The notes under the pieces: generated by a model
Told to the model about the DNA's origin: nothing
Database searches by the model: none
The model's input: only the letters and a program-made list of their open reading frames with translations
NCBI GenBank assembly: GCA_963930775.1
Contig: OZ005697.1
Location: forward strand, 6,160,292 to 6,224,291
Direction of reading: 5' to 3'
DNA from: Cliona cf. orientalis
Taxonomy: Eukaryota; Porifera; Demospongiae; Clionaida; Clionaidae
Length of the DNA: 64,000 nt
Position numbers and translations under genes: made by a program
Shown: positions 1,804-64,000 of the stretch, piece after piece
How positions within the stretch are numbered: the first letter of the stretch is position 1
How the letters are laid out: the number at the start of each line of letters is the position of its first letter

Positions 1804-4255
1804 TTAGCTAGGGTATGATTTAAGTCTATGGGTGTCCACAATGCTGTTTCAATGTGTGTGTGTGTGTGTATTATTTCTGCATTAGTCTACCTAGGTGATA
1901 CCATAACCTCTGTAGCTATCACTAGCTCTTAGCCAGGGTTTCATCTAGCAACAAAAGTTTGGGGTGGAAGCGCGATAAACGAGTGGGCATATTTAACACA
2001 CCAAGTTCTTGGGACGTATTTATAGGAGAATTTCTTTAATTCCTCCAGGTGGTTTCGGGTAGTTTTTGATCAAAAACAAAATTAATGCTAGTGGTTTCAT
2101 TTGGTGACTTACGGCCCTCGTGCTTTACGTCACTACTGTGCCAATATCTGCCGTGTGGCACGAGAGAAGCCCGTGTAATAACTAATTTGTTGCATGAACA
2201 ACTAGCGAAGGACCTCTTTCCATGCTGTGTGCCCCTGAGAGAAACTAGACTCCTCGAAAAAGCCTATCGCGCGGCGAGTGTACTCGGCCGCGCTCTAAAA
2301 AGAACGGGGCTGCTCGATTTCAAAACTTACTTTGACCGAAGGCAGAGCTGGATTGTCTCCAAGACCAAGACCAAGACCGAGTTACTACCGATCCATAAAC
2401 AGACATTTGGCGAGGTATGGCTACGATAGGCCTCGCTAGGTAGCTTGATTTTGCCATATGTGTGCTTCGTGAACTTTGACCTGTGCCATATTCTGCGTGA
2501 ACTGTGCTGACCCGTGCCAGTATCGCATATTATATTGGCATAGCGGCGCCTTTGATGTTATACGGCTTCATGCAACATTTCTTGCCTTGGGAGAGTATGT
2601 TAAACCATAAGCAGCTTATTAGGGACTGTACTTTAGATATTATTATAGTATAATAATATTATATTATATTAGACATTGCTAAAGATTGTAGCAAGCTAAA
2701 TATGGAATACAGAGGGTGCAGTGTGTAAATTCATGCCGAACCTGTGCCTAGCATGAATCTCCTAACATGCAGTAGCTATGTAGCTAAATTTTTACCCATA
2801 GAGTTACTACCCAGTACTAAAGATAATTCTCAGTGCAATAGCCACTATTCACACATAGTTACCCAAAGGAATGAATTAGGGCCCAGCTATATGCTTCCAT
2901 AATATTACTATGATAATATTATTTCATATTATTATTTTCACTTCCTTGCCTTGTGTTAGTGACCAAAAAGTATTCAGTATGTAGCTAGCTACTACTGTAA
3001 CAATGATCATCTATATTATGTACACAAATTAATTTGAATCATGACACTGGCAGCAAAGAGAGTTTTTAGCAGCTATAGCTACATTAATTTTTCTCTACAG
3101 GTCATGTCTACAAGATGCATAATAATTAATTGATTGTTTTAACCACAGTACTGCCTTAATTTGCAGGTGACATGTGAACCTCTTTTCACAAAGTTGGACC
3201 AGCATGAGGTACTGAGTTGAGAGCAACCCTGCGTGGCCATTGCGTATATACACACCCTCTGTAGAACTGAAAATGTGTAATTTTTTTCCTCTATCAATAA
3301 TTGCTTGAAGAATAGCACGTCCATCAGTGAAGCTGTCTTCTTCTAGTGCTACAACACCACAGGGAATGACGCTGTATCTTCTTTGTGGCACACACGCAAA
3401 TATTCCATTCAAATTGAGAAACACAGTGCTCAACCTGCTATTCCCTGTGTGAGCATGAATGTAACTTACATTTGGTCGATAGGCTACGTAGGAGGTGTGT
3501 GAACTTCTGTTGTAGGTGGTTTAGATCTATAGAGGTTATTGTATATTCCCAGTTGCTGCCCGACAACGGTAGCTATAGCTACTTCCCCAATAACAATTCA
3601 TGATCACTTACTCTTGCTTTAAGTCAGATTCAGGTTATGCAACAACACTTACTATAATACTTTATTTACGTTCAAAGTGCATGTCAGTATTATGGTCAGA
3701 TGTAGCTAAATAATTACTGTCAGAAACTTATTATCATTTTGCTAACTTGGGAGTTCCAAATTCTGAGTACAGTGCATTCATCATGCAACCAACATTACAT
3801 AAATTATGTTTCCCAACAAAAAGCAATTCACATTGAATTTCTGAACAAAAGTTGTTTTTGCTTTCTGAATTGAAAGCACTAGTGTTGATTATTGCTGTGA
3901 ATAACAATGGAGTTAACCAGTTGATGGGTGTTTGTGCGCTCTTCCTGCATGGTGACAACTACATCATAATGTAATAGTATGGACTTGCATGATCATGGTT
4001 GCCGTATGTGCATGATTGTGTGTACTCTAATACAGTGTGTTTATTATGAAGAGTACATGTTATGCTTGTATAAACTGATGGTAATACTATTCTGTATTAC
4101 TCAGTGAAACTTGATCGAGTCACTTATTTTCAGTACAGAACTGTAGCCAGCTGGTTTATCTCTGTATAATAGCAGCGTGTGTACATTTACTGCATGCGCC
4201 AACTACCTATGTTATTATTTAATTTACCAGTCACAAGTAACCATATGTAGCTACA
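1804..4255. other. Intergenic, no gene recognised
   Basis: Mostly AT-rich. The 2050-2430 stretch is GC-richer (AAGACCAAGACC repeats, GCGCGGCGAG) and looks like transposon-derived sequence without a recognisable product. Open frames at 3095-3433 and 3734-3958 (minus) show no recognisable domain. Confidence 0.5.
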
Positions 4256-12669: not shown

Positions 12670-14403
12670 TACTTATTTTGGAGAATTATTATGCTGAAGA
12701 CTTAATTTAAAAAATATGCTGAATTATATATTTCAACAAAATTAATGTCGTTTTAGATTTTAGAAAAATTATTGATAGTCATAATATTTTATTATAACTA
12801 ATTTTGAGTGTGCAAATTGATAGCTACGCTGAGGTTGAGCATTCAGTGCATGAGTGCGTAATGTGGAGTAACCTGGAGCTTGCAATGCGTTGAATCACAA
12901 AAAATAAAGTTCATTACATGTTAGCTATATTAATTTTAGTGCTACGATGATTCCGAGTAGCTAAGTGAGGGCAATGTCACGAGAGCAGCTAGTGAGTGAC
13001 TTAGTCATACAAATTAGGGATGTACACATGAATTGCTATAATATTATATACCGGCCAGGAACTTGGTAATTTTCAATAATATTGAACGTATTCAATAAAT
13101 TGTATGTTTTAGCTACTTGCTATAATAATATTAAATATTATTATAACAAGTAAAACGCACAATTGAATGTAATTGAAGGATGACGTAGGGATGGCGGTGC
13201 CAAAAAGGGCATATTAACAAAGATTTGTAGAGATAATCACATCCACTATTATTATATAAAAATAATATTATTATACATCTGGTACATACTCAGCAGATAG
13301 CAAAAATGTTTACGTAAATTTTGCAAGCAGCAAACTGTGTAACACGTGCAGGGTGTATGCTTTAGAGAGCTCTAGTTATCAATGACACTGGGAAAACACC
13401 AGGAGATTAACTTATGCTAGCTACATCTAATTGGATGTCTGTTGATCACGCAAATTAAACAAAAGCACTAAATGCCATATTAGCTAGTAAGTTTTACTAG
13501 TAGAGAATTATGACCATCTTTAATATTATGTGGTGCTGACTACTATACAAGATTGTTTATCATTCATGGGTCTGGGTGTTGTCTTTATTGAGTTATAATA
13601 GTCACAGCTACATTTGTAGCAAAAAATACAAGCTAAGTGCAAACCACAGCTGGTAATACATTATTATACAGCTATAATGTGCCTTCCTCCAGCTAATATA
13701 TATGTAGCTATCTGCTGGTCAATAATAAGTCAGATGTATGTTATGATTGTTGTAGTTAGTCCTCATGGGGGTATATTTAAATAATTATTATGTACATCCT
13801 GTAGGGAAATCTTTTAGTGTGTGAAGTTGTTTTTAGCACATGTCAGCATCCTTTGAATCGCTTGGCTTCATACTATGAAGTGATGGCTTCTACTTGCTCC
13901 CTGTGGTCTATACTACATAAACACTCATGAGGTCTCTGATACACCCACATATAGTTGCAGTAGGATATTGCATGAAGCCAAACAATCCGGTTTTAATAAT
14001 ACTGAAAACACTAATATATAAAACTAGGAGAGCCTCATGGTTTTGAATGCCAGAAGCAATCTGAAGACCATGTGTAGGCTATCAGTTTAATACCAATGTA
14101 TACTATCATAGTGTAGAGTTCTACGGCTTAGAATCTTTAAAAAGGCTTCGCCATATACAACTCATAGGTATTCCAATGTGTAAAGGCCTGCCAAATTGTA
14201 AGCTGTTTACAATAAGTGTCTAAGGTTCTTAGCTAATTGAATCACAGCAATTGGAACTAGTACTTGTATTTCAATTGGCAAATCACTGAAAGCTGAAACC
14301 ATAATCTTCTTGAGCATTCTGAGTCACTATAGTACAACAAGTTATAGCAAAAAAGGGTCTACTTATTGTGCTGGCAAAGAATCTCAATTTCAAGTCGGAC
14401 GGC
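12670..14403. other. Intergenic, no gene recognised
   Basis: AT-rich. A segment near 13343-13380 (GTATGCTTTAGAGAGCTCTAG) resembles one end of the MITE at 33683-34300 and may be a decayed copy. Nothing coding recognised. Confidence 0.4.
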
Positions 14404-17400
14404 ATGGCTCACTTTGGGCTCTTGATTCTATTGATTGTTCCCTACTTTCTAACTCAAGCAGCAAGTGAGGTCTATTACATTACAGGCAATTCACCTGATC
14501 TTTGCACTGTGCAGCCATGTCTAACCTTCTCCCATCTTGCTGCTAACTCTGGCCATTTTGTCCACTCCAACACGACACTAGTCTTCCTCCGTGGAACACA
14601 CCACCTCAACCACGTCAGTTTGATACTGTCAAGCATGGAGAACTTTATAATGATGTCTGATAACTCAATAGCACAAATTAAATGTATAGGTGACTCACAT
14701 TTCTATTTCAATCAATCACAGTATGTTCGTATCACCAATCTGGTGTTCATTGGATGTGGAGGCAATCAAGTGAATCATGTGGAAAAATTGGTGGTTGAAG
14801 ATACAAAGTTTGAAGGTGAAGAGAATACTATTAGTGGAGCGGCACTGGAACTGACAGACACAAGAGCACAAATTGTTAACAGCGTATTTTTGGCAAATAG
14901 AAAAGGATCTTACAGGCATTGTCCAGTGTATTTCCCTAAGATGCATAGTTGTCTAGCAGCCGGATTCATTGGTGGTGCCATTATTGTCACCAATAGTACA
15001 ATTGATATTAGTCACGTCAAATTTGAGGACAACAGAGCAGCAAACTATGGTGGAGCAATATTTGCGAAGCAAAACAGCATCATTCACATGAGCACTAGTG
15101 TATTTATTAATAATGTTGCTAACTTTGGCGGAGCACTGTTTCTATACAATAGTACTATCACAGTAAATGCAAGCAAGTTTCAAAGTAATGCTGCCAGTGC
15201 ATCAGGAGGTGTGCTGTCATCCTTTAGTAGTACTATCATGATAGAAGCTAGTGAATTTCATGGTAATACCGCCTATACAGGAGGAGTGCTTGTATTATCT
15301 ACCAACAGTGTTATCACTATAGAAGCAAGTGAATTTGATAGCAATATTGCCTCCTTTAGCGGAGTACTGTATTCTGATCAGAGCAATGTCACAATAGAAG
15401 CAAGTGCATTTCATAGCAATGTTGCCAAGTGGAGAGGAGTATTCAATTTTGTTAACAGTACTACTACAATTAAGGGAAGTGAATTTCATAGCAATAGTGC
15501 CTTCAACAGAGGAGGTGTGATGAATTCTCACTGCAGTACTATCACAATCAAAGCAAGTAAATTTCGTAGCAACACTGTTGCCAGAGGAGGTATAGGAGGA
15601 GTGTTATATTCCTTTACTAGCACTATCACAGTAGGTAATAGTACCTTCATTAACAACAACTCTCCAAAAGGAGCAGTTATTTTTGCAATGCGTGGCACTA
15701 AAATATGCTACTACAGCTCTCTTTTGATTCATAATAATACAGCGGATGACTATGCTGTGATATATTTAGCTGATTCAGAACTCAGGGGACACAACACAGC
15801 AAATTTTATATTCTCAAGCAATACTGGATCAATAGTGGTTTTTAACAGCAACATAAGTTTTAGTGGCTATGTTGCATGTTTGAACAATCAACCACCATCT
15901 AGTATGACCGGTGATTTACAAAAAGGAGGTGCAATAACCCTATTCCAGAGCAATGTATTCTTTGATGGAACGTGCAATTTTGAATACAATCGCGCTGAAA
16001 GTGGAGGAGCAATACTTTCTATTGACAGCAAGATCTATGTAAATGGGAATGTGACCATAGCACACAATACAGCCACTAGAAATGGTGGAGGTGTCTACCT
16101 TTCCATTAGCGGATTGTACTGCCAAAAAGGAAGCACCTTAGAGCTTTACAACAATACAGCAATGACCAAAGGGGGAGGAGTCCACGGTATTAGCTCTATG
16201 ATCAAGGCGTCTTCTAACGGCATGGAACATCATGGCTTTAGCGACTATGGCAACACGGGATACATTGGTACAAGGTTGAAGTTTGCAAGCAATGCAGCAA
16301 AGTTTGGAGGCGGATTATCATTGGAAGCCAATGCAAAACTCTACGTCCTAAGATATAATTCTGATAGTGATATCAACACGACAATATTATTTAGAGCCAA
16401 TAGTGCAGATTATGGTGGAGCAGTGTATGTGGATGATAATTCCAACTCTGGTACATGTGTTAGTGAACCAAAAACAGACTGTTTCTTTCAAGTACTTGCT
16501 CTATATGAGATTTTTGCTCATAACCTCAAAACACTACAGAGCATGTTATTCTCACAAAATTATGCCAGTATTTCAGGCTCCACTCTCTATGGAGGACTAC
16601 TGGACAGATGTGCTGTGAGTCAGTTTGCAGAAATGCACGAGAAATATACACCTCATGATATACATAGAGGTGGAGGGATTGCTTACTTCAGAAATATTTC
16701 AGCCACCACAACTATTTCGATATCTTCGGGTCCAGTTCGAGTTTGTCTTTATATTCATGGTGTAGATGACTGCTCGCACCATCACCAATATTATGTTAAG
16801 AAGGGAGGAGCATTTACGGTATTGCTTGCTGCCGTTGATCAGGTTGGCCATCCTGTCAGTGCAACCATCCAAGCCTCTCTCAGCTCGGCTGAGGGTGGTC
16901 TAGATGAAGGCCAGCTAGCTCAGAACATATCCGCGAAGTACACAAACATAACATTCAATATTGTTTCCCCCCACGATTCAGAAACTCTTGCTTTATACTC
17001 TTCAGATGGTCCATGCGGAAATGTAGAATTGTCGAAGGCAATAATAAAAGTCCATTTTCTCCCATGTAGTTGTCCAATTGGATTACAAATCTCAGACGTG
17101 AACAGCACAAACTGCACATGTAAATGCCACAACGATATCAGTCAATACATGAAACAATGTGACAGCCATACAGGATCATTATTTAAATATCCTAAAACTA
17201 GGGCCTGGATTTCTCACATCAATGACACAGATTTAACTGGTTATTTAGTCTACCCCAACTGTCCTTTTGATTACTGCCTACCAACCAGTCCACCGATTTA
17301 CCTCAATAAACCAGGTGGAGCGGATGCTCAGTGTGCCTACAATCGATCGTCTCTTTTGTGTGGATCTTGTCAACCTGGTCTCAGCCTTTCTCTTGGTAGT

Positions 17401-18741
17401 TCATGCTGTCTCCCATGTCCTAGCTACTGGCCGGCATTACTCATAGCCATCACCATAGCTGCAATCCTAGCTGGCATAGCACTGGTGGCGATATTGTTAC
17501 TACTTAATATGACTGTTGCAGTTGGTACTCTAAATGGGATAATCTTTTACGCCAACGTTGTGTATGCAAACAAAAGTATTTTGATTTCATTTGAAGAAAC
17601 AAATTATGTTACTGTTCTTATTTCATGGCTGAACTTAGAACTGGGAATTGACACCTGCTACTTTCCAGGAATGGACACTTATATCAAAGCATGGCTACAG
17701 TTGGCTTTTCCTGTTTATGTCATACTTCTTGTAGTCTTAGTTATCATCGTCAGCTCCTATTCTACCAAATTTTCTAACCTGATTGGAAAGAAGAATCCAG
17801 TGGCAACTCTAGCTACACTGATCTTACTATCCTATGCCAAGCTTCTTGAAGTTTGCTTTAATTCTTTATCAGTTGGTACTCTTGAATATCCCGATAGCTC
17901 AAGAGAAATGCTGTGGCTCCCTGATGCAACTGTCAAATACCTCTCTGCAAAGCACATTCCTCTATTCATTTCAGCTGTTGTCATTCTCCTGGCTGGTTTG
18001 ATCTACACAGCCCTTCTCTTCTCTTGGCAGTGCCTTCTCCATCTTCCAAAGTGGAAGATTTTCAAGTGGTCAAGAAATCCAAGGATACAGACATTTGTTG
18101 AAACCTACCATGTGCCCCATACTCCCAAGCATCGCTACTGGACAGGATTGCTGCTTATTGCTCGAGTAATTTTACACCTTGTAGCTTCAACCAATGTTTC
18201 AAATGACCCTACCGTAACACTCATATCAATTTCTATTGTAGTAGTCTTTCTCATCTTTCTTAAGGGATTCACTATGACTAAAGTATACAAGAACTGGTCA
18301 GTAGATGTACTTGAGACATTTTTATTCCTTAACATCTTCATATTCACAATATCTACATGGTACTCTCATGGAAATGAACAAAATTTCAAATGTGCCTTAG
18401 CCTACACTTCAGTCACTATTGCAATCTTAGCTCTCCTTCTCATCATCCTCTACCATATGTACACATACACAATCGTTTTCTCAAAGATTAAAAAGACAAA
18501 GTTTGGTGGAGTAATGGGACTATTCATAGACACTAATCCAGAACCAAAGCATGGGCAGCATCGCTACAGCCCCCCACCTGATAACGACATTCACAGGTTT
18601 GATGAGCTATTGGATGAGCTGGACTGCCCTGTGAACACTGATGACTATAATGCAACTCCTCTTCTTGAACCAGTTGAGCCAACCTTCTCTGTGGTAGAGT
18701 TGCCCAAGGTCCACAATTGTTCACCACCAGATCCTGTCTGA
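14404..18741 (+). CDS. Pmp-type beta-helix repeat receptor-like multi-pass protein, intronless
   Basis: 1445 residues in one exon. The ATG at 14404 is chosen because a signal peptide follows directly (MAHFGLLILLIVPYFLTQAA); the frame is open further upstream but without an ATG. Residues about 115-750 form a parallel beta-helix with many short repeats, alternating FxxN (FEDN, FINN, FQSN, FHSN, FRSN) with GGA/GGV/GGAI turns. This is the signature of chlamydial polymorphic membrane protein (Pmp) repeats, also found in some eukaryotic surface proteins. Two cysteine blocks follow, the second (about 980-1005) reading LCGSCQPG...CCLPCP. About eight membrane segments (1010-1360) and an acidic tail with NATPLLEP complete it. 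The membrane module is related to that of the 10816 protein. Likely a large surface or endosomal receptor; ligand unknown. Rapid repeat turnover is expected. Confidence 0.85.
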   Translation: MAHFGLLILLIVPYFLTQAASEVYYITGNSPDLCTVQPCLTFSHLAANSGHFVHSNTTLVFLRGTHHLNHVSLILSSMENFIMMSDNSIAQIKCIGDSHFYFNQSQYVRITNLVFIGCGGNQVNHVEKLVVEDTKFEGEENTISGAALELTDTRAQIVNSVFLANRKGSYRHCPVYFPKMHSCLAAGFIGGAIIVTNSTIDISHVKFEDNRAANYGGAIFAKQNSIIHMSTSVFINNVANFGGALFLYNSTITVNASKFQSNAASASGGVLSSFSSTIMIEASEFHGNTAYTGGVLVLSTNSVITIEASEFDSNIASFSGVLYSDQSNVTIEASAFHSNVAKWRGVFNFVNSTTTIKGSEFHSNSAFNRGGVMNSHCSTITIKASKFRSNTVARGGIGGVLYSFTSTITVGNSTFINNNSPKGAVIFAMRGTKICYYSSLLIHNNTADDYAVIYLADSELRGHNTANFIFSSNTGSIVVFNSNISFSGYVACLNNQPPSSMTGDLQKGGAITLFQSNVFFDGTCNFEYNRAESGGAILSIDSKIYVNGNVTIAHNTATRNGGGVYLSISGLYCQKGSTLELYNNTAMTKGGGVHGISSMIKASSNGMEHHGFSDYGNTGYIGTRLKFASNAAKFGGGLSLEANAKLYVLRYNSDSDINTTILFRANSADYGGAVYVDDNSNSGTCVSEPKTDCFFQVLALYEIFAHNLKTLQSMLFSQNYASISGSTLYGGLLDRCAVSQFAEMHEKYTPHDIHRGGGIAYFRNISATTTISISSGPVRVCLYIHGVDDCSHHHQYYVKKGGAFTVLLAAVDQVGHPVSATIQASLSSAEGGLDEGQLAQNISAKYTNITFNIVSPHDSETLALYSSDGPCGNVELSKAIIKVHFLPCSCPIGLQISDVNSTNCTCKCHNDISQYMKQCDSHTGSLFKYPKTRAWISHINDTDLTGYLVYPNCPFDYCLPTSPPIYLNKPGGADAQCAYNRSSLLCGSCQPGLSLSLGSSCCLPCPSYWPALLIAITIAAILAGIALVAILLLLNMTVAVGTLNGIIFYANVVYANKSILISFEETNYVTVLISWLNLELGIDTCYFPGMDTYIKAWLQLAFPVYVILLVVLVIIVSSYSTKFSNLIGKKNPVATLATLILLSYAKLLEVCFNSLSVGTLEYPDSSREMLWLPDATVKYLSAKHIPLFISAVVILLAGLIYTALLFSWQCLLHLPKWKIFKWSRNPRIQTFVETYHVPHTPKHRYWTGLLLIARVILHLVASTNVSNDPTVTLISISIVVVFLIFLKGFTMTKVYKNWSVDVLETFLFLNIFIFTISTWYSHGNEQNFKCALAYTSVTIAILALLLIILYHMYTYTIVFSKIKKTKFGGVMGLFIDTNPEPKHGQHRYSPPPDNDIHRFDELLDELDCPVNTDDYNATPLLEPVEPTFSVVELPKVHNCSPPDPV

Positions 18742-36428: not shown

Positions 36429-36570
36429 AGCAATCTAGCCTAAGTTCTTGATGATGAACTCTGAGCCCCACTGGTTCTTGTGATGTCACTATTAGGGCAT
36501 GGGGCATATGCGCATGCGCGCATGGCCCCGGGCACACGCAAACTCAAACTGTGTGACTACAAAATAAAAT

Positions 36571-37593
36571 TTAAGGTACCATTTAATTGCGTGGGCGTGA
36601 GCGTCAGGAATGGCTAATTCAATTAGCGAATCGTGAAGGGGCGTGGCCGAAGAGGCCATACGAGTGCTTTTGGTCGAAGGTGGGCGTGTCCAGAATCGGC
36701 CAGGGATGATTATGCGCGTGTAATTAGCGACCGGAAGTGGCCCCTGAAGAAAAGGCCGGTAATTGCCCACATCAAAGCAAGATCAAAGCATTCTTTCTTA
36801 ACTATTAACCGCAACGACTTAAAAAAAAAAAAAAAAAAAAAAAAAGCCTTATTAGGCCTAATTAAGCATGTGGGCGTGTTCCTGGCACTGTGTGGAGTGT
36901 GTGCGTGTGCGTTAATGCAGGTTTTATTGCTTCCGATTGGGCGTGGCTTCACGGGCCAGTGCTTGGACATCGGCGCCTGGGACTTGGCCTCGGCGATAGG
37001 TGGGCGTGTCCCGGAAGCGGTGGTGACCTTTGAACCCCGCGAGGAGGCTTTGGGGGCGTGGCAGGAGGTCAAAGGTGAGGCCATGTCTGTTAATGAGGCA
37101 CTGTACGGCGGTGCGATCGAGGGGCCTGTACGGCTGGACGGAAGCTGACGATGGTTTGAAGCGGATGTGGTTGCGATGACGTGTTGTTACCCCGCCCACA
37201 CAGGAAATGAGGTGAGCTCTTGCGTGGGCGGTGTGGCAGAACGGCCTCCAAGTGTTTGTGTGTGTTTTGGCCTTGAGGAAGCTGTGTGTTTTAATTGGGA
37301 TTGATTGTGGGCTTCCGGTGGACATCCGGTGGTTAGTAGGCACTTGATTGAGAATGGTGGTCCTTGGGGAACAGGGTGGGGCTGTTTTGGGCGTGGCCTG
37401 GCCCCTCCCTTCCGGCTCGGCTTCCGGTCCATGGAGGATGTTAAATGAACACTTCCGGCTCTAGCAGCCACACCCCTGAGACCTGTGCAATTAAAAGGGC
37501 GTGGTTACACAACATGCACCTCACTAATGACTTTGATGTGGTTTAGGTGTCATATCCCCCACCTCACGCCCACGCAATTTAATGGTACCTTAA
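36571..37593. mobile_element. MITE with about 28-bp inverted ends and TTAA flanks
   Basis: TTAAGGTACCATTTAATTGC and the following GTGGGCGTGAG at the left are inverted at the right (CTCACGCCCACGC...GGTACCTTAA). TTAA at both edges fits piggyBac-type target-site duplication (inference). The core is GC-rich with many GGGCGTG motifs and an A run at about 36822-36845. Long frames on both strands have low-complexity composition and are not taken as genes. Confidence 0.75.
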
Positions 37594-38222
37594 CATTATC
37601 TCCCCAGTAGCAATTTACTTTTCTGTGGTTATGAGGTAATTATGGTGTAATTATGATGAAACCTATGGTGTAATCTATGAGGTAATTATGAGAAAATTCA
37701 GGGCCTCGCTGGAGCCTTTCTGGGACTTGAAAATCAGTAAATATGTAGAGTATCTTACGCGTGTATCCAGCGAATACATTACAAGCTGAGCGCTACTTTC
37801 TCTGAGAAGTACTGTTTGTTGAACTTTACGTGTTTTCTTGGCTTACGTAATGCCGTGGATAAATAAAGCTAGCCTTGCGCTATATATAGCACGCATTGTC
37901 ACAAGGGGCTGTCCCGCGCGCGACTGCAGCAGCGTGACCAACCTGAAGTTCGGAAGGAATACTGTACTGTCGAGTTCGTCTCTGTGATTGAAGCATCGAA
38001 ACTTGTCGCTGTCAAGGCTGAGAGTCGATCTTAGACGCCATCTCCATGATTTCTGGGGCGAGCATCGATCGATGTGTACGCATTCTATTGACGACCTTTT
38101 ACCACATGCACATTACACTATGCAGCTACTGGGGAGATGGTCAAGGGTTCATTACAATGTCATACCAGTGAACATTAATAAAAAAAAGAAAACACCCTCC
38201 CTTCCAGTTTGGCCATGGCTTG
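37594..38222. other. Spacer, no gene recognised
   Basis: Begins with repeated GGTGTAATTATGA / GAGGTAATTATG units (about 37630-37690), then mixed-composition sequence without a recognised domain or RNA. Confidence 0.4.
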
Positions 38223-44998: not shown

Positions 44999-45303
44999 TG
45001 TAATAATTATTTACTTCCTTGTATCAGGTTATTAATGATTATTGTATCATGCATGTATTAACTATTATTTCCTGTCATTGATTTTTGTAGGGCATTGCGC
45101 CTTAGCGCAACCGACCCCATTGTCTTTTAATTAGCGCCCTTGCGCATACGGACTCTTTGTTTTGTGTTTTCTCATATGTATGTACTGTGTGTATGTATCC
45201 TCGGGCATTGCCATATCTTGAATCTCAATAATAATATCTTTATGCTGAGATCGCCACCCAACTAAGTGTGCAGCTCGGTCGCTAGGAACTAACAAACCTT
45301 ACA
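44999..45303 (+). repeat. Left LTR
   Basis: 305 bp from TGTAATAATT to CCTTACA. It contains the shared stretches GGGCATTGCGCCTTAGCG and TACGGACTCTTTGTTTTGTG. Confidence 0.9.
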
Positions 45304-45319
45304 ATTGGCGACGAGGATC

Positions 45320-46170
45320 ATGGCAGATGAAAGTGGCAACGGTACGGGTGCTGGGAGTGGCACTGGGGACTCCAGCTCTACTGCTGCAGCTACCGTGGCT
45401 ACTGCGCCCACCGTTCGGGTAGCAGGAGTCATTGGGGTCGTAGCTCCCTTCAACAGTAAAGAGGAGGAGTGGATCGACTATGCGGAGCGACTGGAACATT
45501 ACTTCATTGCGAACGACATAACTGATGTCGCTAAAAAGAGAGCAATTTTGCTCAATGGAGCAGGGGCGTCTACCTATCATTTGATCAAAACCCTGGCACT
45601 ACCTGGAGTACCCAAAGACCTCACGTTTGAACAGATTGTTGAGAAGGTCACTGCTCACTACAACCCCAAACCGTCGGTGATTATCAAACGCTTTGAATTC
45701 AACACGAGAGTTCAAAAGGAAGGGGAGTCCGTAGCCGAATTTGTAGCGGCTCTTCGAAAGATTACGGAGCATTATGAGTTCGGTACGTTTCTGTACGACT
45801 TATTACGCGATCGTCTAGTGTGTGGAGTGCTCGACAAGAAAGTTCAGCACCGTTTCCTCCAAGAATCTAAACTCACCTATAAGCAAGCATTCGACATGGC
45901 TATAGCGGCAGAAGCAGCCCGCAAGGATGCGAAGCGACTCCAAGAACACAGGGAGGAAACATGTTCAGGGGAAACACGACCCCCTGAGACCGACCCCTGT
46001 CAATCGAGTGACAAAGAACGCACCTCGAACCGATGGTCGTGGCAAAACCGAATGCCACAGGTGTGGTGGGAAGCACCCAGCAGCTCGCTGTAAATTTAAG
46101 GATTACGAGTGTCACTTCTGCAAGAAAAAGGGCCATTTAGCCGCTGTTTGCAGAAAGAAAAAGAAACTTG
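45320..46170 (+). pseudogene. gag of the LTR element (capsid plus nucleocapsid), frameshifted
   Basis: Starts at ATG 45320 (MADESGNGTGAGSG). It contains a gag core (WIDYAERLEHYF, YNPKPSVIIKRFEF, SVAEFVAALRKI, YEFGTF...LRDRLVCGV). Near 45925 the frame moves by +1 before two zinc knuckles, CHRCGGKHPAARC and CHFCKKKGHLAAVC. Whether the shift is a mutation or an ancestral feature cannot be told from one copy; the other frame breaks favour mutation. Confidence 0.8.
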
Positions 46171-48663
46171 CAGCGAGGAGTGAGCCTAAACGTGAACAGA
46201 CCCACCACATCACAGATAACTCCGACGACGATAACGACGATGAATACAACTTGTATCGAGTTAGTAGTGGTTCAACAAAGCCACTGCTTGTAACCGTGAA
46301 ATTGAACAGTGTCGATACGGAAATGGAAGTTGATACTGGAGCGTCAGTCTCCACAATGAGCGAGGAGAAATTTCAGCAGTTCCGAGGGAGCACCTCTGTT
46401 ACACTCCAGCCGTCCAAAGCAAAATTGTTCACTTACACAGGAGAATCTATTGGAGTTCTCGGCTCCACAGAAAGTGACAGTGGAGCACAATCAGCAGGTT
46501 GCTACCCTACCTTTGATCGTGGCGAAGGGTACGGGACCATGTCTACTTGGCCGAAACTGGCTAGCCAAGCTACGATTGGACTGGCAGCAAATATTCTCCG
46601 TCAGGTCTGGTCGCACATTATAGACGGTACTCGACAAGCATCCCGATGTCTTCAAGGACAACTTGGGGACAGTAAAAGGGCTCAAGGCGAAAATTCACGT
46701 TGATCCGAAGGCCACGCCCTTGTACCACAAAGCGAGATCAGTTCCCCTGGTGCTAAGGGAGAAAATTGAGACAGAGTTGGATCGGCTCCAAGCACAAGGC
46801 ATCATAGAGCCCGTGCAGTTTTCGGAGTGGGCGGCTCCGACTGTCCCTGTCATCAAGAGCGACGGAAGTGTCAGAATCTGCGGTGATTATAAAGTTACTG
46901 TTAACAGGGTGGCCAAACTTGACAAGTATCCTCTTCCGCTCATCGACGATCTGTTTGCCTCGTTGGCAGGAGGCAAGCGATTTACGACACTTGACCTTTC
47001 CCATGCTTATCAGCAAATCGAGTTGGACGACGAGTCTCGACACGGTACGTCACAATCAGCACCCATAAAGGATTATTCCGTTACAACCGGTTACCGTTCG
47101 GAGTGGCGTCAGCCCCCTCAATTTTCCAGAGGACGATGGAAAACCTGCTCCAAGGCATCCAAGGTGTCTGCGTCTATATAGACGACATTCTAATCTCGGG
47201 TCGTACCGATGAAGAGCACCTGGAGCATCTCGATGAAGTTCTCCGCCGACTAGCAGAAGTGGGAATGCAACTAAAGAAAAAGAAATTGTGCTTACCTACT
47301 CTCAGCAGTGGACTATCTAGGCCACGTGATCAACGCTGAAGGCCTACGCACATCAGATTCCAAGGTTGCAGGGATTATGAAGGCTCCTGCTCCTCGAGAT
47401 GTTTCAGAGTTGAGATCCTTCCTGGGACTCGTAAATTATTACGGAAAGTTTCTCCCAGACCTTGCAAACACACTCTCACCCTTGTATGCATTGCTGCAAA
47501 AGAAAAGAAGTGGTCATGGGGTGCCAACGAAGAGGAAGCCTTCCAAGCAGTGAAAAAGTTGCTACAGTCGTCTCGCGTACTGGTTCATTTCGACCCCAGC
47601 CTACCTCTCATTCCATCTTGTGATGCGTCTCCGTATGGGTTGGGAGCGGTGTTATCCCACAAGATGCCGAATGGAGAGGAAAGACCTGTGGGATTTGCAT
47701 CTCGTACACTGACAGCTACTGAGCTGAAGTACTCACAGTTGGACAAGGAGGCTCTCGCGATCGTTTTCGGAGTCAAAAAGTACCACTCGTACCTCTACGG
47801 TCGACAGTTTGTGTTGAAAACCGACCATAAGCCCCTAACACACATCTTTAAGGAGACTCGAGCTATTCCTACTCTCGCTTCGGGCAGGATCCAACGCTGG
47901 GCATTGATCTTAAGTGCCTATAGTTACACGATTCAGTACAAACCTGGCAAAGAAAACTCGAACGCGGATGCATTGAGTCGGCTCACTGCACCAGGATCAA
48001 AGAAGGAACCACCGAAACCTCCCGAAGTCGTGCACTTAATGTGTGGTGGCCAGGTATCGATGAGGAGCTTGAAAAGTGTGCTAAGTCTTGTGAGACATGT
48101 CAAATCAATAGGAAATCCCCACCAGCAGCACCGATGCATGCGTGGTCCTGGCCCAACAAGCCGTGGTCAAGGGTGCACATAGATTACGCTGGGCCATTCA
48201 TGGGGAAGATGTTTCTGGTGATCATAGACGCCCATTCGAAGTGGATGGAGGTCCACAAGACAGCCTCTAGCTCATCTACTGCTACTGTTGGTTTACTCAG
48301 AACCATATTTGCGACACTAGGCCTGCCTGAGGTGATTGTTTCAGATAACGCAGAAACTTCACGTCAAAGGAATTTTCAGAATTCCTGAAGCACAACGGAG
48401 TGAGACATGTCCGAACCCCTCCATATCACCCCGCCTCAAATGGCCTCGCGGAGCGAGCGGTTCAGTCGTTCAAGGAGGGAATGAAGAAGCTGAAAGATGG
48501 CTCAATTGACACTAAGTTGGCTCGCATTCTTTTTAAGTACAGGATGACGCCTCAAAGTAGTACAGGCATCTCTCCTGCTGAACTCATGTTTGGTCGTCGT
48601 CTGCGAACACAATTCGATCATTTACATCCCGATATGAGCAAGAAAGCATGTGATGCTCAACTT
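46171..48663 (+). pseudogene. pol of the LTR element (PR-RT-RNase H-IN), multiple frameshifts
   Basis: An aspartic protease motif (VDTGASVST, near 46330) is followed in a new frame by reverse transcriptase: EWAAPTVPVIKSDGSVR, TLDLSHAYQQIELDD, then YIDDILISG (near 47180) after another shift. RNase H-like segments (DASPYGLGAVL, LDKEALAIVFGVKKYHSYL) and DHKPLTHIF follow. The integrase keeps CETCQ, the catalytic-core start HIDYAGPFMG and SDNA, but its first zinc-binding part is missing and it breaks again near 48360. At least five frame changes or deletions are visible, so no active polyprotein. No host gene is fused. Confidence 0.85.
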
Positions 48664-49222
48664 TGACAAGCCAAGGGGCACGATGTTCGTACAAAGCCGA
48701 GAGAATTTAATGTTGGAGAGCTAGTGTATGCACGGAACTACAGTCCTGGTCCAATGTGGTTACCTGGAGAAATTATGGAGAAGCACGGATCCACCTTGTA
48801 CACTGTGTTATTGACAGATGGCCGGAGAGTTAGGAAACACACGGATCAGTTGATGACTCGAGTAAGGCCAGCTGAAACTGCTCGTACTGCGAGTAATGGA
48901 CCAGAAGAGTGTGATCCAGTTGAGTATCCAACGGTAATTTCGCCTACTGAGACTGTTCCAAGTGCAGAGACAGGGAGTAGAGATACTCTTCCTGAAAGTG
49001 AAACACTATCTCCTGATCCTGAGCCAAAACCGAATCCGGACTTGACTGCTAATGGTGCACGCACACCACCCCGAACCTGAACAGGAGCAATCTGCACCTC
49101 CTGAGATATGACGTTCTAGTCAATCTAGACAACCTCCTACGAGGTATGGTGATTATCGCACTTATTGAACTGAACAGTTAACTTTTGTTTTAGTGATTTG
49201 TGTTCATTTAATAGGGAGAAAT

Positions 49223-58647: not shown

Positions 58648-58874
58648 TACCGTATCCGATCTAATTAACGCGCCTCTCTAATAGATGCGCCACCTCGGCC
58701 TAAAGTGCAATTTTCACGCTCTATTTAAACGCGCCCACCCACGCATCCCTATACTTTTGTGTACAAATTTTGCGCGCCACCTGGTCGCGAAGGATAGTTT
58801 TCAGGCTCTAATGGCGCGCCACCCAGCACTCGTAATTATTTTTTCATGGCGCGTTAATTAGATCGGATACGGTA
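58648..58874. mobile_element. MITE with TACCGTATCCGATCTAATTA ends
   Basis: 27-bp ends (TACCGTATCCGATCTAATTA, ACGCGCC) are inverted; the core repeats GGCGCGCCACC modules. It is inserted in the sequence ACAAAG/CAAGC known uninterrupted from the neighbouring array units, with an AG duplication. Confidence 0.85.
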
Positions 58875-58990
58875 AGCAAGCAACCTATACTCCAATTTTG
58901 AGAATTTTTCTAAATAACGCACACCATCGACATTCCCAGTTTTTCACGTAGCACGTGGGTGGAAAACATTGCAAACGCATGGCTTCCCTA

Positions 58991-60044
58991 TACAGACATG
59001 GGAAAATTAAGGCATGAATCAAAATTCCCCAGGGTCAAATCTCTAGTTTCGACCCATTCTTATGTGAACTAATGTGTAGAGCAGGTCCAGCTGATCACAC
59101 TGATATGCATATGACCTATGTTAGTGTTAATATTATGCCACATTCGATATATTCCTGGGCTATTTTGCTCTATGGTTTCTCCTGAATGAATAAATACAAG
59201 GAATTTTATGCATACAAATAAAATAAAGCCACTGTGATGCTAAATACACGATGTGGAATCATGTCTTATATGTATTCTAGCTTTTTGGTTATGAGTTGGT
59301 CAAAAATATATGCCCCTTCCTCACCAAACCTTACGACTTGATAGTAAGCTATCATGCTGCATTAGTTTCTGTAGAAGTTTACATGATGCTAACACCAGAA
59401 GAACTGCACTTTTGACGAAAAAACTACTAAAACCATTGTCTTCAGCACCCTAAATTACTCCCAGAATGATCTTCATGCATTATCCGTTGGTCCACTGTAC
59501 GCGAAGCTTTCTGTGCCATTTTATGAACAGAAATATGCGGAGAAAATTTTTAGCGAATTCAATGGATATTTGATATCACTATTAATAGCTATATACGATG
59601 CATGGAATGAACAACAAACTTATTAAATACCCAGTATTATAATGTGATCACTTATTCTTTTGCTAGCTAATAAACTGAACTAAAATATAATGTAGACTAC
59701 AAAACATTCACTGAAGAGTTCAGTAACTCACTACTTAACTTTTGTAACAAATACTGTGATCTGATTGGTTAAACTGAAGTATCTATCCTTCATAGAAAAT
59801 CATGTAAGCTCTGTAGAAAATCATGTAAAGCTCTGTAGAAAATCATGTAAATTTTCTTGCCTGTGGTTAGGGTTGTTGCTAGGCAGCAGTTTATGTGTCA
59901 AGCTTTTGGGCATTGTTGCTAGGATCTAAACATGTTAGACACTGTTTAGGAGGTTTCTACGTGATTTAGAAGACTGAAGCGCTGTATGTAGAATCCCGAG
60001 TGAATATATAATGCATGTGAACATTGTATTAAAACTTGTGATCT
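58991..60044. other. Spacer, no gene recognised
   Basis: AT-rich. It includes three tandem copies of TAGAAAATCATGTAA (about 59797-59850) and no recognised gene. Confidence 0.4.
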
Positions 60045-60506
60045 TTAATCAACAAGTATTGAGATGAACTTTTGAATAATACTATCATCTAACATGTCAG
60101 CTTCTTCACGCTGTACATCTTCAACTGCATTTTCAATGATGTTTTTGAAATCATTATAGTGATCACTGTTCACTCTGTACCACTCTGTGCCACCACCGTA
60201 GTTAACTCTGTAGTCTCGTGCAGCATTGTGAGCTGCGCTTTCTCCATCACGACAGCTATTCACTGCATATCTCTCCTTCACAACCAATTGACGGGGGTTA
60301 CCAGTTTGAAGTTGACCTCGGCGCCTATCCACTTCGTCACTGTTTCCTTGCACTCCACCAACCTTGTAGTAAATACCAGCAGCTCCAGTTGTTTGCCTCT
60401 CTTGTATGATATAAATGTGTCCAGCAACATTGGTACAACTTGCATTGGCTTGCTCCAGCACAATGATTGCACAAATAGCCATCATAATAACAGTGGCGAA
60501 TTTCAT
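60045..60506 (-). CDS. Small secreted GIY-YIG-type (T5orf172/Mug113-like) protein
   Basis: 153 residues in one exon with a clear signal peptide (1-22, FATVIMMAICAIIVLEQANA). The rest is a compact GIY-YIG-like domain of the T5orf172/Mug113 kind. The GIY strand is GHIYII (29-34), the YIG strand YYKVGG (46-51), followed by RRRGQLQTGNP (61-71), a helix with E89 and AH (92-93), and GGTEWYRV (105-112). The QLQTGNP and EWYRV blocks are the most diagnostic. Related domains occur mainly in phage, bacterial and fungal proteins, usually intracellular; many are presumed nucleases. Secretion is unusual. Catalysis is not certain: Arg61-63 and Glu108 are present, but the spacing should be checked on a model. 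Start chosen at the ATG directly before the signal peptide. No paralogue in the window. Confidence 0.8.
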   Translation of the reverse strand: MKFATVIMMAICAIIVLEQANASCTNVAGHIYIIQERQTTGAAGIYYKVGGVQGNSDEVDRRRGQLQTGNPRQLVVKERYAVNSCRDGESAAHNAARDYRVNYGGGTEWYRVNSDHYNDFKNIIENAVEDVQREEADMLDDSIIQKFISILVD

Positions 60507-60893
60507 TGTACAGTAGACAATTATCCAGTGACTGCAGGTTAATTATGTGATAAAGTTCTTGCAAATGCCGTTAGTAGTAATAATTAAGGCTTGCTTTAAT
60601 TATTAGTTTGGCAGCTACCAAATAGGAGACTCTCTGCTACAGAAGATTTACTACTCCTTGCAACAGCAAAAAGTGAAAAGTGTAAAGCGTAGAACTACTA
60701 TAACTGAATTAGACTAAGTGGTTGTCTGGAGTCTTTGTAGTGTTTATACAAGTGTGACTAAATCAAAGGCAGTTACTCTTAGAATGCTTTACACTTTTTG
60801 CTATAGCCATTGCAAGATTGATATGGAGTAGGAAAATTTCTGTATACAAAAGAATACAGTCATTTAAAATAATTATAAACACTGCATGATTAC

Positions 60894-61016
60894 CTTTACT
60901 ACCTTGAAAAATTTGGCCTTCTTTAGCAAAGGATACAAGGATAGGTTGAACTTTCTTGAACTCACTTAGAGCAATATTTATTCTGTATACACTGGACTGG
61001 AAGCCACCAATGGAAT
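60894..61016 (-). CDS. Possible internal exon, product not recognised
   Basis: An open 123-bp segment between a good acceptor (GCTTTCAG) and donor (AAAG-GTAATC), encoding SIGGFQSSVYRINIALSEF followed by KKVQPILVSFAKEGQIFQGS. It has amphipathic, protein-like composition, but no neighbouring exon could be joined to it with confidence. It might belong to an otherwise unseen gene, or be chance. Confidence 0.3.
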
Positions 61017-61874
61017 CTGAAAGCATTCATATCACAACAAGGTAAAATTCAATATGAAACCTTTCATAAAGGAAACCTGGTACCTGAGCCAAACATTAGT
61101 TGTAAAGTGTGTAATTGCTTGTATATGTACCAAACTGAAATCCAACTACTATAAATGTAGTTCTTTGAAAACTAAGGAACTTTGCATGCCACTTCCTATA
61201 TGTATGAAACACTATAAATCAAACGGTAGCTATTATTTTTTGTGTAGTCAGTAATTCCTAAGGTTTAGCGGTAGTATAATATTTTTATAAAGCCTACATA
61301 TGCAAAGCTACCGCCAGGGCAATATACCCGGTAGCTATGCCATACACACACTGTGGTTAGGGCAATACATAATTATTACAATAACGAGCAATTTCCCTCC
61401 AGCTTCAAGTCTGACTGAGTACTAATAGCTAAGCATCCCAGGCAAATTCCATATTACAATATTGCTATTGGTGCTAACAGCATAGTACTGTTGTAAAGGA
61501 AGTGACGTGCTTTATAATATATAAATTTTATTTTATTACAACGTATAATGCTAATCTTGAAGTGGCATTTTAAAGAAATTTCTGGGTGACCTCTTGTAGC
61601 ACAACTATGCTGATCCTGATAATCCAGGGAGGCTTTTAACTTTGATAATGGAAATCTTCAGCTTCTGCATACCTGACTTGTCCGCATAATATTATAATAT
61701 AAATGAACCATCTCACAGACCCTAAGCTGAACAGCCATAGTTACAGTGTTGGAGAGAATGATGGGTGGCACTTTTTTTTTTGCTTATAATACTTCATGCA
61801 TAAGCATGGGATACAGATATGGGTAGTTGACAAACTAATACACATGTGTATACCCTAGGAATGAATAATTCAAA
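61017..61874. other. Spacer, no gene recognised
   Basis: AT-rich, with a short T run at about 61771-61780. No supported gene or repeat family. Confidence 0.4.
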
Positions 61875-62224
61875 CTACAGGTGATTAATGTGTACAAATA
61901 TATTGCATAAAGCACTTGTATGATGTAGCAGTGACAGTAGTATGGTCCAATAGATTCCAGTTAGCCATAGTGTGAGGGAAGAAGGATGCAAATAGGCATT
62001 AGTGCGAGCAAAAGGCCTTGACAACTGGAGAGTGTTGGAGTTTCTACTGCTCCTGATGTTGGAATGGAATGACAAGGAGTTTCTGGGAAGAAACAGAGTT
62101 TGCAATTGTGCACCAACTTGAACATGAGCCCTAGCTTCGAGTCCAGACTTCTATCCTGGAGAAGTGGTAGATCCAACAGACTCAATAGCACATTGAAGAA
62201 CCTTGATAAACTGGCAACAGTCAA
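61875..62224 (-). mobile_element. LINE 3' fragment
   Basis: Frame-broken minus-strand pieces (LPLLQDRSLDSKLGLMFKLV, LCFFPETPCHSIPT, RPFARTNAYLHP) match the end of the LINE remnant at 43195-44470 (LQDRSLESKLGL, FARTN). Only the last part of ORF2 is present. Confidence 0.6.
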
Positions 62225-62665
62225 TATGCTGAGAGACAGATGATGACAGCAATGGCTTTGAAGGAAAAGAATAAAGAAAAACTTGATGAGTTTGCAGCAA
62301 TGGATGAGGAAATATATTACCTACAGGTAATAAATTATAGCATAAAGCCACAAAATTCATATTATTCTTTATTACATAGACTGTTAACTTTATGCAATAT
62401 CAAGCCAAGATACTTCCCAGGGATGAAAAAATGCAGCAAAAAAAAAATCTCAAATAGAGCAACTGCAGGTGCATAGCTATCTCTGCAGGTATATATCTCT
62501 CCTTCTCTCTCAACTGAGAGAAAAGGAGAGACAGAGGCAGAACGATGAAGAGTGCCGATCGATATCATGCATGCAGCGCACCGTACAGAGAGAAGTAGCT
62601 ACACAGACTGCGAGTTGGTATACAGATTAAGTTACATTCATGGATCTAGATTGTGCATACATATC

Positions 62666-63029
62666 ATAGGTGGCGGAAGCATCTTGAAGGTGAGGGGGCC
62701 AAGGTAGTGTAACATTTCGCGCACAAAGTGCGCGCGCAAAAATTTAAGCCACGTCCACTAACTAGCTAGGGTAAACGAGTTCGTGAAACATGGCGAAGTT
62801 TAAGAAGCAACGATGAATGGCAGGCAAAAACAGTCCATGACAAGGAGAGCAGCAATGAATCTAGCATATTTTTGACTCAGAACTGACAGAAGGCTTGTAC
62901 CGACAGGTAAGTTTCAGTTTTTTTTTTTTTTTTGCTGAGCATAAGGCAAGAGTGGGTGTCAGCCTTGAAAAGTGGGGGGCCATGGCCCCCTGGCCCCCCC
63001 CCCCCGCCCCCCGGTTCCGCCGCCCATGC
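62666..63029. mobile_element. MITE with ATAGGTGGCGGAAGC ends
   Basis: The left end ATAGGTGGCGGAAGC is inverted, with a few mismatches, at the right (GGTTCCGCCGCCCAT). The G/C-run core (GGGGGGCCATGGCCCCCTGG) resembles the element at 25745-26022. Confidence 0.65.
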
Positions 63030-64000
63030 ATATATCAGTCACTGCATGATAGCTTACTCTATTGTGAGAAACTTAGGTGAGGCTTTGTAGCTGGTGATTT
63101 GGCATTTTTTTTTTTTTGAAATTGCCAAATTTAAGAGTTAGCTACTTAACCTTGCAAATCGGTTGCGCGGAATCGCCGCTAGCTTCATTTTTGCTTGTAT
63201 TAGGTTTCTATGGATAAAGTTTAGGTGGGCGTGGCTTCGTAACGGTTTTGCCTACGATCGCGTAACAAGCGCCGTTGGATAGAGCTCGTGGAGAGCTAGC
63301 TACCTTCTGATACTCGAACATTGATATTCCACTGAGAGAAGTTCCGCGGAAAAACTGGTGAAACTTGGAGGTCCGTAATCGCTACTTGAATATACACATA
63401 GCTCAGATCTGATTGGTCAGCAAGGCTGTGTAGGCAATTTAAATATAGCTGGCAATGGCACTGTTACATTCCTGTGGTTTGCAAATTATATAACTGGGTT
63501 AAAGCTATAATCTGATTGGTATAAGCAAAGTCCTCCATTGGTCATCAACTGGATCAAGCTTTTTGCCCAAACATCATGATCAGATCTTTTTCCTCCTTGA
63601 AGATGGGGTCTGCAGTGGGGATGTGATTCCTCTGTAGATGAAAATGTCCTAGTGCACAATGGAGTAGTCTCGTCACTGCCTTTCAGAGTGGCATGCTTGT
63701 TGTAAGCGGAAAGGCCTGGATTTCATTTGTTCGATCATGCACCTTTACTTTATTGAAAGGCAGCTACATTTTATTATATTCGCTAGCTGGATATACGTAT
63801 GTGCGAGTTGCTCTACATATCTAGTAATTTTAATAGTACCGTGACAGTAGCTCCAGAGATGCTTAATTATATAAATAGTTTACCTCATAATCACATCATA
63901 ATTATCAAATAGCTAATTGCAGAAATCAGTGCTATACACTAAGCATCTAACTAAAACAGCTCACTAAGAACAACCCCATAACTACGTAGATCACATAAAT
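63030..64000. other. Unannotated right edge
   Basis: Contains T runs (about 63106-63117) and GGTGGGCGTGGCTTCG-type repeat sequence. No gene or RNA recognised. Confidence 0.4.

Follow-up and report, generated by a model that had tools for sequence, protein, structure and literature searches.

The subject of this analysis is a small gene in a 64,000-nucleotide stretch of DNA (the window) from the sponge Cliona cf. orientalis, spanning positions 6,160,292 to 6,224,291 of contig OZ005697.1 (assembly GCA_963930775.1). On the minus strand of the window, at 60045..60506, lies an intronless open reading frame (ORF) for a secreted-type GIY-YIG protein of 153 residues that belongs to the MUG113/T5orf172 branch, as judged from the ORF itself, Pfam and a search of the genome. 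Both the gene and the expanded family around it are real. Our preferred explanation, to which we give a probability of roughly 55%, is that the window gene encodes a small nuclease of the secretory pathway, one of an old animal family that is both growing and in part decaying, and whose members, secreted or phagolysosomal, act on DNA from microbes or outside cells.

The gene is a single open frame running from 60506 to 60045; a stop 13 codons upstream opens the frame, and no ATG precedes the one used. In dinucleotide shuffles of the surrounding 4.2 kb, an ATG-initiated ORF of equal length appeared in one of 300. A preliminary description of this DNA had given the same coordinates without a strand, and the sequence blocks it had singled out, IYII (with Tyr32), YYKVGG (with Lys48), QLQTGNP and EWYRV, are all found in the protein. 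Its proposal of a nearly minimal GIY-YIG domain behind a signal-peptide-like start is supported by the starts of the paralogues and by a Pfam match to MUG113 (PF13455) over residues 54-120, which at 31.6 bits exceeds the curated cut-off of 22.3. T5orf172 (PF10544) is not among the Pfam matches of the window protein; 13 of 16 family rows match it, and 12 of 16 match MUG113. No second Pfam domain scores above cut-off in the window protein, the predicted mature part of which comprises about 131 residues.

The GIY-YIG-like core covers residues 29-109 (60180..60422, minus strand) and, from the family alignment, the residue table and the secondary structure of a model, places Tyr32 on strand 1, Lys48 on strand 2, Arg62 on helix 1 and Glu89 on helix 2, followed by Glu108-Trp109. 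The model of residues 24-153 (pLDDT 88.2) has strands at 6-13 and 22-30, a helix at 34-44, a strand at 51-59 and a helix at 62-72 in model numbering, which is the strand-strand-helix-strand-helix core of the GIY-YIG superfamily; the C-terminal tail (residues 111-153; 60048..60176, minus strand) is modelled mostly as one long helix. Against BFVD, the model matched T5orf172 and GIY-YIG models with E values down to 3.7e-7, headed by T5orf172 proteins of giant viruses. Among solved structures, none of 244 Foldseek matches in the PDB reached E 0.001 or better, and in a second structural look the top six rows were Slx1; by sequence, the window protein gave one chance-level match (E 1.4) and the family profile none. 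NCBIfam matched none of four proteins, and the best match in PHROGs was a family of unknown function (E 3e-8).

What the preliminary description had presented as a single gene is indeed a gene; the family around it, with at least 21 loci and forms devoid of a signal, had been missed. A search of the genome (216.8 Mb, 149 contigs) with the window protein returned 22 rows, spread over eight contigs that measure 7.8 to 37.5 Mb. Since L014 and L022 come from a single broken gene, these rows represent 21 loci, a lower bound. By reading of the ORFs, 17 are intact over the domain, three are broken (L014/L022, L016 and L019) and one is partial (L020); L013 was counted as intact, its reported stops falling past its 133-residue ORF. 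The window protein is also encoded at two other loci with 99% identity, and the remaining rows are 27-49% identical to it. Paralogue queries added no new loci (14 rows with L012, 20 with L009). Profile searches returned 17 rows for PF13455 (16 above cut-off) and ten for PF10544 (nine above cut-off); the sub-cut-off row in each, near C7:2471.8 kb, marks the only place outside the protein-search set and may be a further fragment. That the genome is an animal one, as had been stated, is borne out by matches to Wnt, found on three contigs with a best E of 3.6e-40 and in none of 14 control genomes; three Wnt loci would also be in keeping with a demosponge.

Residue conservation was counted over 16 aligned family rows, omitting the second of two near-identical copies on contig C4. 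Gly29, Lys48, Asn70, Glu89 and Trp109 are invariant in all 16, and the full set of Tyr32, Lys48, Arg62 and Glu89 is kept in 13, the window protein among them; Arg62 is lost in L004, L015 and L018, and L015 additionally lacks Tyr32. The window protein thus contains every one of the catalytic residues of the GIY-YIG superfamily, namely Tyr (Y32), Tyr or Lys (K48), Arg (R62) and Glu (E89), and the same set is retained by six relatives from prokaryotes and viruses in an alignment with six members of the family. The His or Tyr found one turn after the Arg is replaced by Leu66, and no His or Tyr occurs anywhere in modelled helix 1 (residues 57-67). How tightly the core is held can be seen in paralogue pairs: L005 and L007 differ at 54 of 174 residues and at none of 14 core positions, as do L006 and L007, with a hypergeometric P of 0.004 that is optimistic because the core positions were chosen from an alignment containing these rows. 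The closer pair of L005 and L006 differs at 13 of 177 residues, again at none in the core, and is uninformative (P 0.33). The core is thus retained while the shell evolves fast, a pattern that both conflict and relaxed constraint would fit.

Residues 1-22 (MKFATVIMMAICAIIVLEQANA; 60441..60506, minus strand) form a likely signal peptide, with a hydrophobic core averaging 3.30 on the Kyte-Doolittle scale over 11 residues and an ANA cleavage site. Signal peptides were judged throughout by hydropathy and cleavage-site residues, with the cleavage sites placed by hand, and it is the comparison of starts among paralogues that suggests the window protein is probably exported. A hydrophobic start followed by Ala at the putative cleavage site recurs in 12 of the 17 intact loci (L001-L007, L010-L012, L015 and L021), where the best 11-residue hydropathy mean ranges from 1.94 to 3.47; it is absent from the other five (L008, L009, L013, L017 and L018), where the range is -0.22 to 1.42. 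The putative cleavage motif is AQA in L004 and the gene cluster on contig C1, and ATA, VxA or LHA in the others. The signal-less paralogues include a starred clade in the tree described below, made up of L009, L013 and L017. Two cysteines are proposed as disulphide partners: Cys24 (codon at 60435..60437, minus strand), the second residue past the predicted cleavage site, and Cys85 (60252..60254, minus strand) at the start of helix 2. Such a pair, with one Cys at most four residues past the cleavage site and another at the start of helix 2, occurs in seven of 11 secreted-type rows (the window, L003, L005, L006, L007, L010 and L015) and in none of the five rows that lack a signal-like start, counting related rows as separate. 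The first Cys was scored by its place after the cleavage site because the alignment does not keep it in a single column; L004 has the first Cys only, and L011, L012 and L021 are without the pair. A disulphide at this position would fit the oxidising secretory route. From prokaryotes and viruses, 15 ORFs were read (some 12 of them distinct, with start codons chosen mechanically), L043 yielding none that was usable; not one begins with a signal-peptide-like sequence, in line with the earlier remark that known relatives of the protein are mostly not secreted; by reading, the sole hydrophobic stretch among them, in L047, covers the first core strand.

But where does the family come from? Its phage and plasmid matches have E values of 0.03 or worse, and relatives in a genome-contig collection are 29-36% identical to the paralogue L008. 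Pattern scans found seven viral loci per query and six prokaryotic loci, 25-38% identical to the query, the same genes reaching up to 41% in later comparisons. Genomes of two bacterial phyla were also sampled, and at E 0.01 the window protein found a match in 5 of 292 in one and 2 of 398 in the other, with a best identity of 41% over 86 residues. Among the seven loci concerned (L056-L062), L062 has an internal stop and was set aside from translation, L057 is the same gene as L048, L058 showed no corresponding ORF at the position translated, and L061 went into the tree; L056, L059 and L060, which account for at least three of the five matches in the first phylum sample, are long proteins without a core of the LQTGNP type, which by their look we take to be membrane channels. 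Closer relatives may exist, because the pattern scans catch only those with words of the LQTGN or GGGTEW type and the whole-genome samples comprise two bacterial phyla. In a tree of 28 rows, 15 animal and 13 prokaryotic or viral, the latter all fall on one side of a branch with weak support (68/17); 14 of the 15 animal rows group at 90/92, a value that did not earn the tree tool's star, and the long-branched L021 stands apart. The animal copies are therefore not nested among the phage and bacterial homologues against which the preliminary description had proposed to place them. The secreted-type rows need three changes on this tree, with which a single origin of the signal peptide may be compatible.

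The family continues to change by duplication. The segment around the window gene (58872..63080) is shared with contig C4, which carries two inverted copies of it that are 99.9% alike: the window is 96.5% identical to one copy over 60007-63080 and 97.8% identical to the other over 60007-62430, and about 89% identical over 58872-59740. On C4 itself (4860001-4880000), L023 and L024 lie in a 4.7-kb inverted duplication with arms that are 99.9% identical and about 1.2 kb apart, with one gene copy per arm. A stretch of C1 of less than 36 kb contains three secreted-type members and, among them, a broken fourth. This copy pattern is one of birth, duplication and decay of family members. Adjoining the 3' end of the window gene, a 266-bp insert (59741-60006) that is absent from both C4 copies proved to be a dispersed repeat: with 40 of 1723 first-look candidates scored, at least 42 of 91 rows, including that of the window, align with it at 95-100% over 230 or more bases. 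A second stretch of the window of about 1 kb (36570-37594) is 97-98% identical to sequences beside both C4 gene copies and is probably another dispersed repeat.

Substitution rates were computed for eight pairs in all. Three cytosolic-type pairs (from L009, L013 and L017) have dN/dS values of 0.15-0.33 at a dS of about 1.5 or more, near saturation, and the window gene gives 0.11 with L004 and 0.27 with L005 at a dS above 2. The three C1-cluster pairs stand at 0.87, 1.17 and 1.23; positive selection was considered here and set aside, as these values are indistinguishable by eye from relaxed constraint. Purifying selection could likewise not be concluded from the near-identical copies: the window and one C4 copy differ once across the 462 coding positions (60045-60506, counting the stop codon) and 19 times across 1931 non-coding ones, too few differences to decide (one-sided Fisher P 0.08).

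We would like to place the protein into the context of known GIY-YIG systems. T5orf172 is described as a GIY-YIG subfamily with a profile closely related to that of MUG113 (PMC10448857), and the window family shares with the T5orf172 (PF10544)/MUG113 (PF13455) branch a Tyr, Lys-Ile/Val-Gly, Arg, LQTGNP, Glu and EWF/Y in core order; it differs by its predicted N-terminal export signal and, often, the Cys pair. The zinc-finger or RepA-type DNA-binding part reported for phage proteins (PMC10448857, PMC8263062) is not present in the window protein, and Pfam finds in it no additional DNA-binding domain as is typical of phage T5orf172 homing endonucleases. One parallel is Odn (Gp88) of phage ICP1, a T5orf172 nuclease that is reported to cut DNA without a helix-1 His or Tyr and to fail when its Glu is changed (PMC8263062); like the window protein, it lacks the helix-1 residue and conserves the matching Glu. 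Unlike the window protein, it has its own RepA-like DNA-binding half and targets a replicon inside a bacterium (PMC8263062). Lys instead of the YIG Tyr, as in the window protein, is described for R.Hpy188I (PMC2630997). This enzyme differs in being a site-specific restriction enzyme of another GIY-YIG branch. The animal GIY-YIG nucleases Slx1 and ANKLE1/LEM-3 work in the nucleus and are not known to be secreted. They probably share the fold, Slx1 providing the best solved structural matches, and differ in their additional RING, or ankyrin and LEM, parts; animal proteins with such parts have been linked to repair (PMC1564403). A precedent in sponges comes from Spongilla lacustris: Table 1 of PMC10176882 counts a T5orf172 gene, its origin stated as unknown, as one of the hydrolases that mark mesocytes. 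For every marker gene the paper mentions putative homologues from further sponges, and it considers bacterial transfer as their source. We liken the Spongilla gene to the window gene as a T5orf172 gene of a sponge, listed among the hydrolases of one cell type; the likeness is one of domain name, and the two may not be of the same family. Elsewhere, a study of Ircinia sponges names a GIY-YIG gene as being under balancing selection and classes it with mobile elements (PMC7990798), and a GIY-YIG transcript is reported from mussel (PMC6215123). A secreted animal GIY-YIG or T5orf172 family is not described in the titles and abstract openings listed by the literature searches; a paper on prokaryotic genes in Amphimedon (PMC4784904) contains none of six terms looked for, and the Ephydatia genome paper (PMC7385117) contains neither 'nuclease' nor 'GIY'.

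How would such a protein work? Removal of the signal peptide would leave a stand-alone GIY-YIG domain, probably braced by a disulphide and lacking the DNA-binding domains of its phage relatives, in which Tyr32, Lys48 (for the YIG Tyr), Arg62 and a metal-binding Glu89 would form the active site. Its cleavage of DNA would depend little on sequence. Working extracellularly or within phagolysosomes, it would act on DNA from bacteria or algae that the filter feeder has ingested, for digestion, defence or both. The likeliest role, judged from the biochemistry of the family, the predicted export signal and the Spongilla mesocyte marker, appears to be the breakdown of DNA that comes from microbes or lies outside cells; antimicrobial or symbiont-directed action, which the preliminary description had suggested, would be conceivable for such an enzyme.

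Other explanations have to be weighed against this one. The domain could have given up cutting and persist outside the cell in a structural or nucleic-acid-binding capacity, as the loss of Arg62 or Tyr32 in some paralogues, the lack of a helix-1 His or Tyr and the high dN/dS of the C1 cluster (0.87-1.23) would suggest. However, Lys48 and Glu89 are kept in every aligned row and the full set in 13 of 16, and Odn is reported to cut DNA without the helix-1 residue (PMC8263062), which makes this explanation rather unlikely. We find it improbable that the hydrophobic start is instead a membrane anchor or an organelle-targeting segment of an enzyme that acts on endogenous DNA, such as that of mitochondria. 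The case for export does rest on hydropathy and cleavage-site residues, and other animal GIY-YIG proteins, those with LEM, ankyrin or RING parts, are linked to repair (PMC1564403), but the hydrophobic start and the cleavage-site Ala recur together in 12 of 17 intact loci, and the Cys pair accompanies the start in seven of 11 rows while being absent from the five loci without the segment.

The preliminary description had favoured a bacterial or phage gene, recently acquired and made into an antimicrobial or symbiont-directed effector. In its favour, most of what is otherwise known of the family comes from phages and bacteria, the window gene is intronless, and the Spongilla T5orf172 gene shares its table with several genes assigned a bacterial origin, the paper favouring transfer for genes of this kind (PMC10176882). 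Recent transfer is nevertheless disfavoured because the prokaryotic and viral matches are weak and 14 of the 15 animal rows group apart; within the collections and the two phyla sampled, a recent bacterial, phage or plasmid origin finds no support in the E values and identities given above, and we hold the effector scenario as a whole to be of low probability. An old transfer may lie behind the family, and the tree does not separate it from descent because other eukaryotes lie outside the collections sampled. Homing genes have no need of export, a point against the family being a remnant or passenger of mobile DNA (a homing gene, giant-virus insertion or transposon cargo) with no host role. 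The recent segment duplication with its inverted pair on C4, the broken copies and the giant-virus T5orf172 proteins that lead the model matches would fit such an origin; yet no second Pfam domain accompanies the nuclease part, the core residues are kept while the remainder changes, and dN/dS is 0.11-0.33 in five older pairs (dS near saturation), so that we regard it as very improbable.

An old animal family of secreted or phagolysosomal nucleases would, if confirmed, bring animals a new class of extracellular or phagolysosomal DNase, one that has expanded and goes on duplicating in a filter feeder, and would offer a testable function for the T5orf172 gene that marks sponge mesocytes. Animal GIY-YIG proteins with a discussed role have, in the literature seen, mostly been tied to repair or mobile elements. 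More tentatively, the window family may represent lineage-specific secreted, disulphide-braced GIY-YIG DNases that diversify under conflict with microbes; animals would then have an arsenal of extracellular nucleases whose fold is familiar elsewhere from homing, restriction and repair. The weight of these proposals falls if the proteins are inactive or the branch is already catalogued in databases.

The rest of the window contains further features. Between 4241 and 28061 lie five long ORFs of 564-649 residues (at 4241, 7722, 21356, 23633 and 26175) that are alike by eye and look like multi-pass membrane proteins, perhaps peptide-transporter-like; Pfam gave no match at E 0.001 for the one that was searched. 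Among them, at 14323-18741, a 1472-residue ORF carries polymorphic membrane protein repeats of the Chlamydia type (PF02415, E 3.4e-10 for the whole protein) in an animal genome, with a C-terminal part that looks hydrophobic. Finally, 45293-49080 holds retroelement pieces in several frames, comprising a reverse-transcriptase RNase H identified by Pfam and, by look, gag-like and integrase-like parts.
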